Assembly (NCBI RefSeq): GCF_019966545.1
Contig: NZ_JAIMIC010000002.1
Location: 372,001-436,000 of the forward strand
Direction: 5' to 3'
DNA length: 64,000 nucleotides
Source: Heliomarina baculiformis
GTDB taxonomy: Bacteria > Pseudomonadota > Alphaproteobacteria > Rhodobacterales > Rhodobacteraceae
The notes beneath the pieces were generated by a model. It did not search any database, was not told the origin of the DNA, and saw only the letters and a list, made by a program, of their open reading frames with translations. Shown here piece by piece: positions 42,048-48,419 of the stretch. Position numbers and translations under genes: made by a program. Each line of letters starts with the position of its first letter. Position 1 is the stretch's first letter.

Positions 42048-43235
42048 ATGCTCGCGTTTTTTAAAGATCCACGGGCCGTTGCATTGTTGCTGGCGGCATC
42101 GCTTACCATCCTGTCCAACACGATCATCAGCCCGGCTCTGCCCGGGTTGCAGGCAAGCTTTCCGGACAATCCCAACGCGGAACTGATGACCCGGTTGCTG
42201 GTCACGGCGCCTTCGCTGCTCGTGGCGTTCTTTGCGCCCTTTGCCGGTATGGTGGCAGATCGTTTTGGTCGTCGGCGCCAGATATTGGTGGGCGCCTTGC
42301 TGTTTTCGGTGGCGGGATGTGCCGGGACGCTTTTGCCAAGCCTCGAAACCATCCTTGTCAGCCGCCTGTTCCTTGGGCTTTCGGTTGCAATGGTCATGAC
42401 GGGGCAGGCCGCTCTCATCGGTGACTATTTCGACGGCGAAGCGCGCGGCAAGTTCATGGGGCTGCAGATCGCGGTCGTCAATTTCAGCGGATTTGCCTTT
42501 ATCGCCCTCTCGGGCTGGCTTGCGGGCATGTCACCGCGCCTGCCGTTCCTGATCTACGCGCTTGGAGCGATCATCTTTCCCTATCTCTGGTTCACGGTAA
42601 AGGATCCGGTTGCCAAAGCATCCACCGGCCCCGAGGTCGCCGGCGAAAACGCCGGGTCAGCGGGATGGGTTCTGACGCTGGTAGTTATCGTAACGCTTTC
42701 GGCGCTCAGCTTTGTCCTGTTTTACCTCGTGCCGACGCAGATCCCGTTTTACCTCGCGACCATCGGTTTCGACAGCGCCTCTGACCCGGCGCAGGTTCTT
42801 GCCATGGTGACGCTTGCAGGGGGTGCGACGGCGCTTGCCTTCGGGCGAATTCACGCCCGTCTCGGGCATGGGCTGACGCCGGCGTGCGGTTTCCTGTTCA
42901 TGGCCTGCGGCTTTGGCTTGCTTGACTGGGTGCACAGTATGGCCCTGATCGACCTTGCAGCGCTGTGTATCGGCGCCGGGTTTGGCCTGACGATGCCGAC
43001 CTTCTTTGCCGTTGCGCTTGACGCGGCGCCGGCGCAGCACCGGGGTCTTGTTTCGGGCGCTATCACGACGAGCATCTTCCTGGGCCAGTTCATCTCGCCG
43101 ATCTTCAGCATGCCGATGGTCGGCGCGATCGGGTACGAGGGCACCTTCGGCGTAGCGGCTATCATCCTCGTGGTCACCGCGGTCTTGGTCTACCTGTTCT
43201 TCCAGCGTCGCGGACGTTCCACCGTTCCTGCGTAA
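42048..43235 (+). CDS. MFS transporter
   Basis: A 395-residue membrane protein with about twelve hydrophobic helices. MFS motif A appears as GMVADRFGRRRQI after helix 2, and SRLFLGLSVAMVMTGQAALI resembles the motif B region of drug-efflux type members. Substrate unknown; export of a metabolite or drug is as likely as uptake. It lies between the acyl-CoA locus and the signalling cluster without obvious operon partners. Confidence 0.88.
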   Translation: MLAFFKDPRAVALLLAASLTILSNTIISPALPGLQASFPDNPNAELMTRLLVTAPSLLVAFFAPFAGMVADRFGRRRQILVGALLFSVAGCAGTLLPSLETILVSRLFLGLSVAMVMTGQAALIGDYFDGEARGKFMGLQIAVVNFSGFAFIALSGWLAGMSPRLPFLIYALGAIIFPYLWFTVKDPVAKASTGPEVAGENAGSAGWVLTLVVIVTLSALSFVLFYLVPTQIPFYLATIGFDSASDPAQVLAMVTLAGGATALAFGRIHARLGHGLTPACGFLFMACGFGLLDWVHSMALIDLAALCIGAGFGLTMPTFFAVALDAAPAQHRGLVSGAITTSIFLGQFISPIFSMPMVGAIGYEGTFGVAAIILVVTAVLVYLFFQRRGRSTVPA

Positions 43236-43323
43236 CTGTTTTGCGGGAGCGGGCGCGTCGCCGTTTGCGCCCTGTGCTCGGTAAGGTGATGTTTTGCAGG
43301 GGGACGGGATCATTCAGACCAGT

Positions 43324-43983
43324 TCACGCCTTGCGCAGTGGTCCAGTCTGAAAGCAAAAGTCATCGTCCTTGGTGAATTCCATGAGATAACCCTTCAGAT
43401 GCGCGTGCTTTTCCTGTTTTTTCTCGCGTGCGATCGACTGCGCCGCTTCGGACATTGCCGCCATGATGGTGGGGCGCAGCGATTGGCGGAAGCTATCGTC
43501 GCGCAAGGCTGAAATAAGCGCGTGTTCAGCTTCGCGCTTCAGCATTGTAGGATCAAACTGCTGAACACGATTTTCCAGTGCTTGCAGGATCGCAGAGCGC
43601 AGACTTTCGGGCGAGATATCCTGTTTCGGCAAAAAGTCTGAACACCCGGCTTTCAGTGCCGCGACTGCCAGTTCGATCTGCCCGTTTCCGGAGATCATGA
43701 TGGTCGCGGCATTCCGGTTCTTGCTACTCGCCTGGACAATGTCCAAAGCCGAAAAACCGTCACCATCGGCCAGCCGGTAATCTACGAGCACAAGGTCATA
43801 GGCGTGCTCCTGCATGGATTGTTCCATCGTTTCCAGCGTCGGAACAGAATGCATCGTAATGGGAAGACCCAGCCCATCGCTCATCCGGCAGATACGCCGC
43901 CGGTCAAATTCGTCATCGTCAAGCAGGAGCGCATTCACCGCTTTTGGCTCTGCCGAAGGATAGATCGTTGAAGGCTCAGTCAT
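43324..43983 (-). CDS. Response regulator without DNA-binding domain (receiver 1)
   Basis: A 219-residue protein. The receiver domain covers about residues 16-135 with the acidic pocket Asp22-24 (LLLDDDEFDRRR), phosphoacceptor Asp68 (LVLVDYRLADGDG), Ser98 and Lys120 (FLPKQD). The remaining 85 residues are predicted helical and match no output domain I know. It is paralogous to the receiver at 45112-45807 (shared DDxxFDRRRI). It lies 144 bp behind the kinase at 44128-44877 on the same strand, the likely partner. Start at MTEPST; the frame extends to 44004. Confidence 0.85.
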   Translation of the reverse strand: MTEPSTIYPSAEPKAVNALLLDDDEFDRRRICRMSDGLGLPITMHSVPTLETMEQSMQEHAYDLVLVDYRLADGDGFSALDIVQASSKNRNAATIMISGNGQIELAVAALKAGCSDFLPKQDISPESLRSAILQALENRVQQFDPTMLKREAEHALISALRDDSFRQSLRPTIMAAMSEAAQSIAREKKQEKHAHLKGYLMEFTKDDDFCFQTGPLRKA

Positions 43984-44127
43984 TTGCGACCCCCGAATTG
44001 CCACCCGTAGCGACTGTATCCGGTAGCAATCCGGATTTCGTTAATTTCGCCAGGGTGAGAAGGGCGCGCGTGTCGAAGGTTTTACTAAACTTCCTGTCGG
44101 GTCGTTTTTGCGAAGCCGTGAGTATCG

Positions 44128-44877
44128 CTAGCCAACGGTCCGACAGGAATTTGGAAACTTGATCGCTATGCGGGTGCCTCGAATGCCTTCGGTGGGGAGC
44201 CATTCAATCTGCGCCTTGTACAGGTTCGCGATCTTGCGGACGTTGGCCAGACCCATACCGCTGCCCTCGATTTCATCCCGGGGTTTCAGGGTCGTCATGA
44301 CCTCGAAAACTTTCTCTCGCGATTTTTTCGGAATGCCGGGGCCATCGTCCCAGACTGACAAAACCGGCCCCTGCGGCGTGTCATGGGTGGATATCTTGAT
44401 AAATCCAGTTTCACTGTCGTGATGCTTTATTGAATTTGAGAGAAGCGAAGACACAAGGGTAAGCGCATCATGTTCGCCGAGAAAGATAGTTGGCGAATGT
44501 ATTTCCCTGTTAAGCTCGAAACCCTGCGGAACGGGAACCTGATCAAGGGTCGTATCAATGACCGTGTTCCAGTGCAATTGAATGGATTCCTGCATTCGCC
44601 CAATCCGCGAGTAAACCAAAAGGTCTATCAGCATCCGGTCCAATCGTCGCGTATGGGTGTTCATCAGTTCGATATTACCGGCGAGGGATTTGGAAATTGG
44701 CAGTCCGGCATCCCTGATATCTTCTTCGATCCATTGGGGGAGTTCGAGAAGCGCGCGTACGGAGTTCCGTACGTCATGACTCACTAAATATATGAAATCC
44801 TCGAATTCCTGTGCGGCATTTTCAATTGAAACAACGGCCGACGTATTCGTATCCACTTTTCTTTCTGGCAGAGACAT
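44128..44877 (-). CDS. Sensor-less histidine kinase (kinase 1)
   Basis: A 249-residue cytoplasmic histidine kinase. The phosphoacceptor is His34 (LVSHDVRN); the ATPase domain has SNSIKHHD (N box), WDDGPGIP (G1) and GSGMGLANVRK (G2). There is no transmembrane or PAS segment, only about 25 residues before the dimerisation helix. The H-box style resembles the light-sensing phytochrome kinase group, but the photosensory part is missing. It must receive its input from another protein. It is divergent from receiver 2. Confidence 0.87.
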   Translation of the reverse strand: MSLPERKVDTNTSAVVSIENAAQEFEDFIYLVSHDVRNSVRALLELPQWIEEDIRDAGLPISKSLAGNIELMNTHTRRLDRMLIDLLVYSRIGRMQESIQLHWNTVIDTTLDQVPVPQGFELNREIHSPTIFLGEHDALTLVSSLLSNSIKHHDSETGFIKISTHDTPQGPVLSVWDDGPGIPKKSREKVFEVMTTLKPRDEIEGSGMGLANVRKIANLYKAQIEWLPTEGIRGTRIAIKFPNSCRTVG

Positions 44878-45111
44878 CGTGTATCCTTGATCATGCTAAG
44901 CCTGAGCTTCGTAACGCTTTTGACCTAACGGACTCTTAAGTCGTCATTCCGGCGATTATGAAACGGGTTCGAATCACCGCTGCTTTCAAAAATCCTAAAA
45001 GTTTTCACAATATCCGTGATCGTATTTCACCAATGGGTAACCGGTTCGAAGCTAGGTTCCCATGTTAAGGGGCGCGTTTTCGTTGGCCACACCTTATCGA
45101 AGGGAGTAGAT

Positions 45112-45807
45112 ATGAAGCAGAATATTCAAGAGATTGAAACTGTTACCGTCAAGGCCCCGTGCTCAGAGCCGGGAATCAAAGCTCTTATTCTGGACGACAG
45201 CGTCTTTGACCGACGGCGCATCCGTCGCCTGAGTGATGATACCGCGTTGGGAATAACTCTTGATGAGACAGCATCGATCGAGGGCTTGCAAGAAGCATTG
45301 GATCAGGAACGGTTCGACGTGATCCTCATTGATTACAATCTTCCTCAAGGCGATGGGATTGAGGCCCTCCAGGTGATTCGTAACCATCAGGTGAACGGAT
45401 CCTGCCCAACGATCATGGTTACCGGGGACGATAAATCGGATGTCGCCGTCAAATCCTTAAAGATGGGGTGCGAAGATTACCTTACCAAAGATGAAATGAC
45501 TCCCGAGACTTTAAAGTTCAGTATCGTGGGGGCAATTAAAAGTGCAGCAAAGAACGCCGGAATAGACGCGCTGGTTCAATCGGAAATTGAACAGGTCACG
45601 TCCGTTATCATGGCCAAATACACGAACGCGCTGCAGCCCAAATTGGCACGGGTTATTCGTGATATGAGAAGCCTGAGATCCTCACTTCCGGATAAAGACG
45701 TGAATGTTCCGGGTGAACTGGAAAATATCGAGCGTCAATGTATCAAACTGTGGTCACTGCTGCTTGATCCTCACACGGTGTCGCGCCGGCAAGAATTTCG
45801 ACATTAA
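45112..45807 (+). CDS. Response regulator without DNA-binding domain (receiver 2)
   Basis: A 231-residue paralogue of receiver 1. The acidic pair is Asp28-Asp29 (LILDDSVFDRRR), the phosphoacceptor Asp74 (ILIDYNLPQGDG), with Thr104 (IMVTGDD) and Lys126 (YLTKDE). A helical C-terminal tail of about 95 residues contains no HTH. AAGGGAG precedes the ATG at 45112; an open frame to 45016 is discounted. It is followed by a PAS kinase and a third receiver on the same strand. Confidence 0.86.
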   Translation: MKQNIQEIETVTVKAPCSEPGIKALILDDSVFDRRRIRRLSDDTALGITLDETASIEGLQEALDQERFDVILIDYNLPQGDGIEALQVIRNHQVNGSCPTIMVTGDDKSDVAVKSLKMGCEDYLTKDEMTPETLKFSIVGAIKSAAKNAGIDALVQSEIEQVTSVIMAKYTNALQPKLARVIRDMRSLRSSLPDKDVNVPGELENIERQCIKLWSLLLDPHTVSRRQEFRH

Positions 45808-45930
45808 AGTCCAAAACGGGTGTCTAAGACGACTCTTGCATGAAAGATGGAAGAGCGACCGGCGGGCTTGTTTTCAGTAGCTCATATCGCTTGAAGAATG
45901 AAGAATTCTTCTTCGGGCCGAGGTCTCGAT

Positions 45931-47370
45931 ATGTCGACGATATTATTGTCTATCGATCACTTTCCGGCTCCTGCCTTACTCGTTTCAGAATCGGGCGTAA
46001 TAACTGAATGTAATTTGATGGCGGCCGAACTGCTGAAGGCACCTCGGAGTGAGGTTGAAGGCAAACCGCTCGATAGCTTGCTTGTGGATTTATGGTTTGG
46101 CCGACAAAATTCGACACCCGTTCATGCCTTGCTCAGTGCAACCCCACCGGAAACGTTGCTCAAGCAGAGCAGCAAAACAATGGACGGCCGGGATGTCACC
46201 GTTTCCATCTCTGCCGGACCTTCCGAGGGGCGCACATCGGTTTCTTATTGCATTGCGCTCAGCCAAGGAGAGGCGCCAGGATCATCCTCGCAGAATTTCC
46301 GCGATATTGTGGATGCCTCGGCCAGCGCCATCATCATGTGTGATGCAACGGGGGCGATCAGGTTTGCCAGCCGCGCGGCAGGTGGGCTGTTTGGGTACGA
46401 TTTGGACAGCCTGATTGGGATGTGCGTGGACCAGCTGGTGCCTGGTAAGCTCAAGAGGCACCACAAGGATTACCGGATCGAATTTAGCAAGGCGATGAAA
46501 CCCCGCGCCATGGGCCGCAAGAGCAAGGTTACTGCGGTTCACAAGGAAGGGCATGAAATCCCGATTGAAATCGTGCTGACGCCTGTCAACGAGGCGGATG
46601 CCGAGATCATGTGCACCATCGTCGATTTGACCGAGCACGTGGCGACGAGAACGGAAATTTCGCAAAAAGCAAAAGAGCTTGAGCAGCTTAACGCCGAACT
46701 TTCGGCCTTTGCCAATAGTGCCAGTCATGATCTCAAGGCGCCGCTTTGTTCAATCGAGGGCTTGCTGAGCCTATGTCTGGAGGATCTAGAAGCTGGCGAC
46801 GCCGACGAATTGAAGAAGAACCTTGAAGAGGCGCTGCTGATCAGCCGTTCAAATGCCAGCAAGGTGGAGAAAATCATCGAACTTGCGCAGGCAGGACAGG
46901 CCAAGTTGCACAAGGAAAGATTTTCACTGCGCGCGGATATCGTCGAAATCTGGCGCAGTTTGCGGTCCGTTGGATCTGCGGGCGCGGTACTGGAATTTGA
47001 CCTGCGCCACGGCGACATCGTCAATCTCGAGCGCGCCGCGATGAACATGATACTCGCCAACCTTTTGTCGAATGCCCTGCGCTATGGCGACCCGGAGAAA
47101 CCATCTCACGTAATCAGGATTTCAAGTCGGCGGGAAAACAACCAGTTGCAGATGGTGGTGGGCGACAACGGGCGCGGTATTTCCGGAGGTAATCTGCAGC
47201 GCGTCTTTACCTATTTCTCAAGGTTCGATGAGCTAAGCAATGAGGGGGTCGGCCTCGCGCTGGTGCGCAAACAGATCGAACGGCTGGGCGGCGCGATTTC
47301 GGTTCACAGCGTCGAAGGGCAGGGCACTGAATTCAGCTTTCTAATTCCACTGGAAGAAAGAGAGGAATGA
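45931..47370 (+). CDS. PAS-domain histidine kinase (kinase 2)
   Basis: A 479-residue soluble kinase. Two PAS-like modules (about 5-110 and 125-240; the second has DASASAIIMCDATGAIRFAS and GHEIPIEIVLTPV) are followed by a short coiled coil, a HisKA helix with His266 (NSASHDLKAPL) and an ATPase domain with NLLSNALRYGD, GDNGRGIS and GVGLALVRKQ. No transmembrane helix is seen, so it senses a cytoplasmic cue. The ATG at 45931 after GAGGT is preferred to the one at 45898. Its stop overlaps the start of receiver 3. Confidence 0.88.
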   Translation: MSTILLSIDHFPAPALLVSESGVITECNLMAAELLKAPRSEVEGKPLDSLLVDLWFGRQNSTPVHALLSATPPETLLKQSSKTMDGRDVTVSISAGPSEGRTSVSYCIALSQGEAPGSSSQNFRDIVDASASAIIMCDATGAIRFASRAAGGLFGYDLDSLIGMCVDQLVPGKLKRHHKDYRIEFSKAMKPRAMGRKSKVTAVHKEGHEIPIEIVLTPVNEADAEIMCTIVDLTEHVATRTEISQKAKELEQLNAELSAFANSASHDLKAPLCSIEGLLSLCLEDLEAGDADELKKNLEEALLISRSNASKVEKIIELAQAGQAKLHKERFSLRADIVEIWRSLRSVGSAGAVLEFDLRHGDIVNLERAAMNMILANLLSNALRYGDPEKPSHVIRISSRRENNQLQMVVGDNGRGISGGNLQRVFTYFSRFDELSNEGVGLALVRKQIERLGGAISVHSVEGQGTEFSFLIPLEEREE

Positions 47371-47807
47371 TGAAGATACCGGTGATGGTCATCGATGATG
47401 AAACCGTCGACAGGTACACGGCAAAGCGCCGGCTCGACAAGCACGGCGGTTTCGAAGAGGTTGTCGAAGTGTGCTCCGGTGACCAGTTTCTCGAAAGGCA
47501 TTGCACTGAAAAAAATGGTTTACAGCCTCACCGGCCGCTATTGATTCTGATCGATATCAACATGCCCGGCCGCAACGGGTTTGAAACCATCGCCGAACTC
47601 GAAAAGCGGCAAAAGCTTGGGATCGCCCCGCAGGCTGTGGTCGTGATGATGTTCACGTCATCTGGCAATCCCAAGGACAAGGCGGCTGCCGCCTCTTTTT
47701 CACTGGTGAGAGGGTACATCGAAAAGCCGCTGGATGCGGCGGGCGCAGAAGAACTCTACCAGATATACCGGGCTGCTTTTCCGAATATCGTTGATGAAAC
47801 CGCCTGA
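47367..47807 (+). CDS. Single-domain response regulator (receiver 3, Rcp1-like)
   Basis: A 146-residue stand-alone receiver: Asp10-Asp11 (VMVIDDETVD), phosphoacceptor Asp63 (ILIDINMPG), a Thr-Ser pair in VVMMFTSSGN and Lys in YIEKPLD. It resembles cyanobacterial Rcp1, the partner of phytochrome kinases, and with the kinase upstream forms an ATGA-coupled pair. With no output domain it acts by protein contact or as a phosphate relay. It abuts the convergent ureG stop with no gap. Confidence 0.87.
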   Translation: MMKIPVMVIDDETVDRYTAKRRLDKHGGFEEVVEVCSGDQFLERHCTEKNGLQPHRPLLILIDINMPGRNGFETIAELEKRQKLGIAPQAVVVMMFTSSGNPKDKAAAASFSLVRGYIEKPLDAAGAEELYQIYRAAFPNIVDETA

Positions 47808-48419
47808 CTAAAGACCGCCAATATCCCGGATTGATTGTACAATCGCATCGAGCCCTTCTTGCTTTCGCAGAGAGGCGAAAAAGAACGGCCGCTCTTTGCG
47901 CATCTTTATGCTGTCCCGTTCCATCACTTCGAGCGACGCGCCGACATGGGGGGCCAGATCGGTTTTGTTGATGACCAGAATGTCGGACTTGGTGATTGCG
48001 GGCCCCCCTTTGCGCGGGATCTCTTCACCTGCGGCTACGTCGATCACGTAGATGGTCAAATCGGCCAGCTCCGGCGAAAAGGTCGCCGACAGGTTGTCGC
48101 CACCGGATTCGATCAGTATGACATCTAGATCCGGATGTCTTTCACGCATTCGGGCAATCGCGGCGAGGTTGATGGACGCGTCTTCGCGGATAGCCGTATG
48201 CGGACAGCCGCCGGTTTCCACGCCCATGATCCGGTCCAAAGGCAGTACCTGAAGCCGCATCAGGGCTTCGGCATCTTCCTGCGTGTAGATATCGTTCGTG
48301 ATGACCGCGACGGAAAAATCATCGCGCATCGCGGCGCAAAGGGCGGCGGTCAGTGTGGTCTTTCCGGCACCGACCGGGCCGCCGATACCGATGCGCAGGG
48401 GGCCGTGATTTGAACTCAT
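47808..48419 (-). CDS. ureG: Urease accessory GTPase UreG
   Basis: A 203-residue SIMIBI-class GTPase that drives nickel insertion into urease. P-loop GPVGAGKT (14-21), [13 protein letters not shown], the metal-site Cys-Pro-His (GGCPHTAIR) and NKTDLAP are all present. Its ATG overlaps the ureF stop (ATGA). It is the last gene of ureEFG and its stop abuts that of receiver 3. Confidence 0.97.

Follow-up and report, generated by a model that had tools for sequence, protein, structure and literature searches.

How can a signalling locus act when none of its proteins carries a recognisable output domain? This question is raised by a five-gene island at positions 43324-47807 of a 64,000-nucleotide stretch of the Heliomarina baculiformis genome (contig NZ_JAIMIC010000002.1, 372,001 to 436,000 of the forward strand), called the window below. 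The first-pass annotation described the island as a set of kinases and receivers with no output domain, and this description holds: all five open reading frames (ORFs) lie at these coordinates and Pfam finds no output family. The receiver R1 and the kinase K1 form the minus-strand arm, while R2, K2 and R3 (receiver, kinase, receiver) form the plus-strand arm. The answer that we favour, and to which we give about an even chance, sees R2 as a response regulator with a captured pseudo-DHp output, related to the DHp (dimerisation and histidine phosphotransfer) domain of histidine kinases, and acting by kinase contact.

Pfam Response_reg is matched in all three receivers: R1 (43324-44004, minus strand, 226 aa, residues 26-139), R2 (45112..45807, plus strand, 231 aa) and R3 (47367-47807, plus strand, 146 aa, residues 6-124). 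The Asp pocket, Ser/Thr and Lys are intact in each of them according to the sequence. K1 (44128-44877, minus strand, 249 aa) is a soluble histidine kinase by the ORF list and Pfam, with HATPase_c, a sub-threshold HisKA and no sensor domain. K2 (45898-47370, plus strand) combines two PAS stretches with HisKA and HATPase_c. The H, N and G boxes are intact in both kinases, the acceptor being His34 in K1 (44776-44778, minus strand) and His277 in K2 (46726-46728, plus strand). The sensor-less K1, the two PAS stretches of K2 and the divergent layout in two arms, a kinase plus a DDxxFDRRRI-type receiver in either arm, had all been recognised in the first-pass annotation, as had the paralogy of R1 and R2. 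The latter are 33% identical, R2 being the best R1 match elsewhere in the genome. The ORF list has R2 as 45016-45807 on the plus strand with a GTG start at 45016, but ATG 45112 is probably the true start, because the relative at locus L039 begins there (231 aa).

At the Pfam curated cut-off nothing matches the receiver tails of the window proteins, and helix-turn-helix or winged helix-turn-helix output domains are absent from R1, R2 and R3 in Pfam scans of the window proteins and the tail sets. A C-terminal HATPase_c is likewise absent from R2 by Pfam, so R2 does not count as a histidine kinase. NCBIfam gives general two-component models for the five proteins, with whole-protein equivalogs far under cut-off. 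No named output family for the tails came from Pfam, NCBIfam or sequence searches of solved structures with tail profiles, and the match list of a whole R2 model against the PDB was filled by the receiver domain. R3 consists of a receiver (REC) domain only, with the Asp, Thr/Ser and Lys of the phosphorylation site. It may be Rcp1-like, a label that comes from the first-pass annotation and general knowledge.

The R2 tail and kinase DHp domains

For the comparison of tails 75 receivers were aligned, five too-short ones were dropped and four tails were excluded by eye (one OmpR-like protein and three poor fits). The classes, also assigned by eye, comprise 46 R2-type and 20 R1-type tails. The tails of R1 and R2, previously regarded as alike, fall into two distinct classes. 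R2-type tails share the pattern C..EMR..L...LR..R.LR, followed by a loop and then L...E..C..LW. R1-type tails have little in common beyond an acidic-aromatic end such as DDDFCF (43351..43368, minus strand, in R1) or DEFIFH; when they were tried as a second DHp, no consistent register was obtained. The acidic-aromatic motif is present in 18/20 R1-type tails, 0/46 R2-type tails and 8/219 background ORFs, a count that is partly circular, as both the pattern and the classes were picked after inspection.

Modelled alone by AlphaFold2, the R2 tail (45565..45804, plus strand) folds into a two-helix hairpin with helices 2-40 and 48-67 (pLDDT 83). The first Foldseek match of this model is the RetS/GacS DHp complex (PDB 7n0e, prob 0.90), and 15 of the best 50 rows are histidine-kinase or DHp chains.

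Further evidence comes from profile alignments. When DHp profiles of four sets of neighbouring kinases were aligned with the R2-type tail family by hhalign, the alignments spanned 61-68 columns in a single register, and none of the 480 alignments with permutations preserving the helical phase reached 60 columns. By score alone, 9, 1, 0 and 0 permutations out of 120 reached the observed value in the four kinase sets. A profile built from tails only, with no kinase included, was then run on 388 genomes of Rhodobacteraceae, the family of the window's genome. It gave 13 matches with E-values between 1e-6 and 1e-3: four family receivers, six histidine kinases and, as the remaining three, what look like a carbohydrate-active enzyme and a coiled coil, together with a frame of 41 residues. 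The tail-profile match in genome G050 is the receiver of locus L064. Pfam finds HisKA in all six kinases, whose alignments are gapless across the H-box and put the kinase His at model position 23. Among 92 neighbouring kinases, this position lies no more than 5 residues from the kinase His in 45 of the 61 scored and no more than 1 in 29, as against 2/42 and none, respectively, for the reversed tail profile.

The column of the acceptor His in R2-type tails holds P, S, A, N, Q, G, E, R, T, D or K, in R2 itself Asn172 (45625-45627, plus strand), as placed by the alignment with kinases. Around this column, the tails mostly retain the E/D, M/L/I and R/K/Q neighbours of the H-box. Because the acceptor His is found in 0/46 tails, we file the R2 tail as derived from a DHp and not as a working one; both the register and the loss of the His were computed directly. 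The earlier statement that the tails resemble no output domain therefore stands with regard to Pfam families at cut-off but not with regard to the R2 tail, which is in register with a His-less DHp. An anti-anti-sigma or HPt fold, for which a search of the tails had been suggested, finds no backing, there being no His in the acceptor column of the 46 tails and no such family among the listed Pfam matches.

The DHp ancestry of the R2 tail is well supported. After R1 and R2 themselves, the best R1 match in the window genome (contig C32, E 4.4e-12) lies inside a 377-residue REC-kinase. In a tree of REC domains, whose groups are partly resolved only and from which distances alone were used, R2-type receivers have mean distances of 2.4 to R1-type receivers, 3.3 to REC-kinases and 4.9-5.2 to other RECs. 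R2 probably descends from a kinase with REC, DHp and catalytic (CA) domains after loss of the His and the catalytic domain. A comparable layout, with an N-terminal REC followed by kinase parts, is found in the REC-histidine kinase LvrB of Leptospira (PDB 8vc9), which the receiver-family profile matches over profile positions 24-223 (chain 4-207), well beyond receiver length. LvrB is annotated as a histidine kinase, whereas R2 stops after the degenerate DHp.

Distribution and neighbourhoods of the receivers

Relatives of R1 (E 1e-15 or better) are present in 51 of 394 sampled genomes of the family, about 1 in 8, and R2 as query found relatives in 20 of 149. The R2-tail profile has matches in 52 of the 388 genomes (E 0.001), nine of which (G034, G092, G119, G230, G297, G306, G354, G365 and G380) have matches not shown as these receivers, so that 43 remain. 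Run on 385 genomes sampled across the class, the same profile matched six, three from the same family and three from elsewhere with marginal scores; two of the latter three were read and neither looks receiver-like, one reading as a coiled-coil protein and the other lying in an unrelated gene region. The closest named relative, Phaeobacter sp. 22II1-1F12B, has the five genes in the same arrangement, with an R1 that is 89% identical.

With the five window proteins as queries, neighbourhoods were surveyed at 63 loci, 62 of them containing such a receiver. The loci come from 62 genome stretches and, for L039, from a collection of named genomes; R1-query matches on contig C11 of G002 and contig C66 of G355 were left out. 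Four blocks recur: family receivers, short kinases like K1, longer sensor kinases (those tested have PAS, HAMP or CHASE) and REC-kinases that are some 360-400 residues long. REC-kinases and short kinases are seldom found at the same locus: they occur together at 2 loci, the REC-kinase only at 13, the short kinase only at 33 and neither at 14 (Fisher p 1.7e-4). All ten neighbour kinases tested for a bacteriophytochrome partner were negative. A 541-aa frame in L136 was considered as a fusion that might reveal a partner, and it reads as an upstream extension of an open frame.

Co-conservation of the genes, expected from the first-pass annotation, is partial. A short kinase lies at most 429 bases from the R1-type receiver in 18/19 fetched loci besides the window, and 29/39 R3-type receivers immediately follow a same-strand kinase. 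R1-type and R2-type receivers together with a short kinase are found at six loci besides the window (L039, L042, L049, L101, L102 and L108). The full five-gene set is rare, occurring outside the window in L039 and L042 only, with four of the five genes in L041. This synteny, too, was computed directly.

A solute-binding protein family, predicted to be extracellular, recurs near L047, L050, L058, L101, L106 and L110; the L101 member matches Pfam SBP_bac_8. In several clusters its gene adjoins that of a membrane kinase, which suggests periplasmic ligand sensing in sister systems. In L046, L107 and L136 a family receiver without neighbouring kinases lies between metK-like and aroA-like genes (named by reading). 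The window genome itself contains a second cluster (L135, contig C32, 1-12000) with a long kinase, an R3-type receiver and a REC-kinase, and no R1-type or R2-type receiver alongside.

Possible mechanism and alternative explanations

K1 consists of a DHp and a catalytic domain and is without a sensor; R2 consists of a receiver and a DHp-like hairpin and is without a catalytic domain. Phosphotransfer pairs, DHp pairing, direction of regulation and final target are all inferred in the scheme that follows. The island may represent one version of a two-component network with several kinases in Rhodobacteraceae, in which K1 and/or K2 would phosphorylate R2. Phosphorylation would switch the pseudo-DHp of R2 to pair with, or to release, the DHp of a kinase in the network, most of all that of the sensor-less K1, so that K1 and R2 would jointly replace the single REC-kinase of the sister cluster version. 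The proposal that K1 and R2 are a split REC-kinase joined by DHp-DHp contacts, and that receivers with a His-less DHp output feed back on kinases throughout the family, is plausible but tentative. R1, the operon partner of K1, and R3, the partner of K2, would pass the signal onward by contact. R1 may perhaps do so via its C-terminal acidic-aromatic peptide, docking on a kinase or another receiver; in the kinase WalK, a tail of acidic-aromatic type is reported as important for regulator contact (PMC9087282). Action by protein contact, as already proposed for the island, still seems the likeliest mode.

Known systems provide precedents for single elements of this scheme. DHp heterodimerisation can block a kinase, a known mode of control described for RetS-GacS of Pseudomonas aeruginosa (PDB 7n0e; PMC12148439). 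There, as proposed for R2, a kinase-derived DHp controls another kinase by DHp pairing, but RetS is complete as a kinase and includes a sensor, whereas in R2 the His-less DHp-like tail is attached to a receiver and the catalytic domain is missing. The Caulobacter pseudo-histidine kinase DivL has its acceptor His replaced, as R2 has, and its DHp still signals, by binding and not by catalysis (PMC4211667). DivL retains PAS and CA and senses DivK~P in trans, while R2 has its own receiver in cis. In related bacteria, receiver-like proteins of the Osp/FixT kind inhibit kinases by contact. Osp from Cereibacter sphaeroides is, according to PMC9430884, a 120-residue protein without an acidic pocket that is not phosphorylated; R1 and R2, by comparison, keep their DD pairs and tails (226 and 231 aa). 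Open-licence literature searches found no description of the receivers studied here. The general kind, two-component signalling, is familiar, and what appears to be new is a response regulator class, the R2-type receivers, with an apparently captured pseudo-DHp as output.

Several results weigh against such an output. Probabilities from hhalign are low (4-27% for the first alignment, 4-14% for the one behind the permutation control), permutations of the REC-HK comparison exceed the observed score in 9/120, and the six matched kinases cannot be counted as six independent matches, most of them being similar to each other. Pfam HisKA (PF00512) is absent among the matches listed for the 46 R2-type tails, even at E 10 (25 of 41 families are listed and each remaining family matches one tail). 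The window's R2 tail gives one unrelated weak row only in Pfam with E up to 10. When solved structures were searched with the tail profile by hmmsearch, no kinase was listed and the best row was a designed helical bundle. The Foldseek E-values of the R2 tail exceed 0.6 and are not significant, and unrelated hairpins score equally well in structural Z (about 7). Furthermore, R2-type receivers without a short kinase nearby exist, and 26/62 loci have neither an R1-type receiver nor a short kinase. The missing HisKA and the insignificant structure matches are what could be expected if the tail were an unrelated two-helix hairpin resembling a DHp by chance. This is, however, difficult to reconcile with a register on the kinase His that beats both reversed and permuted controls and with blind genome matches that fall in kinase DHp domains, and we regard it as quite improbable.

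Other explanations differ in what the tail would do. DHp domains are dimerisation domains, the hairpin would suit a homodimeric four-helix bundle and R2-type receivers are found without nearby kinases, so a DHp-derived tail might merely homodimerise R2, the output partner being some other protein and no kinase being contacted. The recurring neighbours are nevertheless kinases and receivers, and no alternative partner is evident because the only other recurring family, beside the kinases of several clusters, is the solute-binding protein; we find this explanation rather unlikely. Improbable, in our opinion, is an ordinary phosphorelay or phosphate sink, in which R1, R2 and R3 compete for the phosphoryl groups of K1/K2 and the tails have no specific role: it agrees with active-site residues kept in all receivers and with R3 being a lone receiver, but not with tail patterns conserved across many genera (46 + 20 aligned tails) and a class-specific C-terminal motif. 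A partner switch in which the receiver mimics a sigma factor or an anti-sigma partner would have a precedent in PhyR/NepR, used by Alphaproteobacteria (PMC12148442). It seems very improbable here, as Pfam finds no sigma-like domain, the REC is at the N terminus whereas PhyR has an N-terminal sigma-like domain and a C-terminal REC, and among the recurring neighbour families we noticed neither a sigma-factor gene nor one for NepR.

The majority of response regulators work on DNA or are enzymes. If the output of this recurrent receiver class is indeed a dead DHp, it would show how bacteria build multi-kinase networks with hard-wired cross-talk and would give a testable function to receivers whose tails are left unannotated by databases. 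Single-residue predictions can be made for the column that once held the His and for the interface of the hairpin.

Surroundings of the island and minor features

The two arms are separated by the divergent intergenic region 44878..45111; no sigma-70-like site was found in 43250-47900. The R3 gene overlaps the end of K2. Flanking genes were named by sequence reading: an MFS-type transporter lies on the R1 side (42048-43235) and urease accessory genes begin on the R3 side from 47808, with a ureG-like gene adjoining R3. An ORF family over the ureG-like gene, partly an opposite-strand frame, is again found next to the islands in L039, L041 and L042, and for this reason the urease-side setting of the island looks old.

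The last residue is His in 16/46 R2-type and 4/20 R1-type receivers as compared to 3/219 background ORFs, with both CAC and CAT codons in use. R2 of the window terminates in RH (45799-45804).

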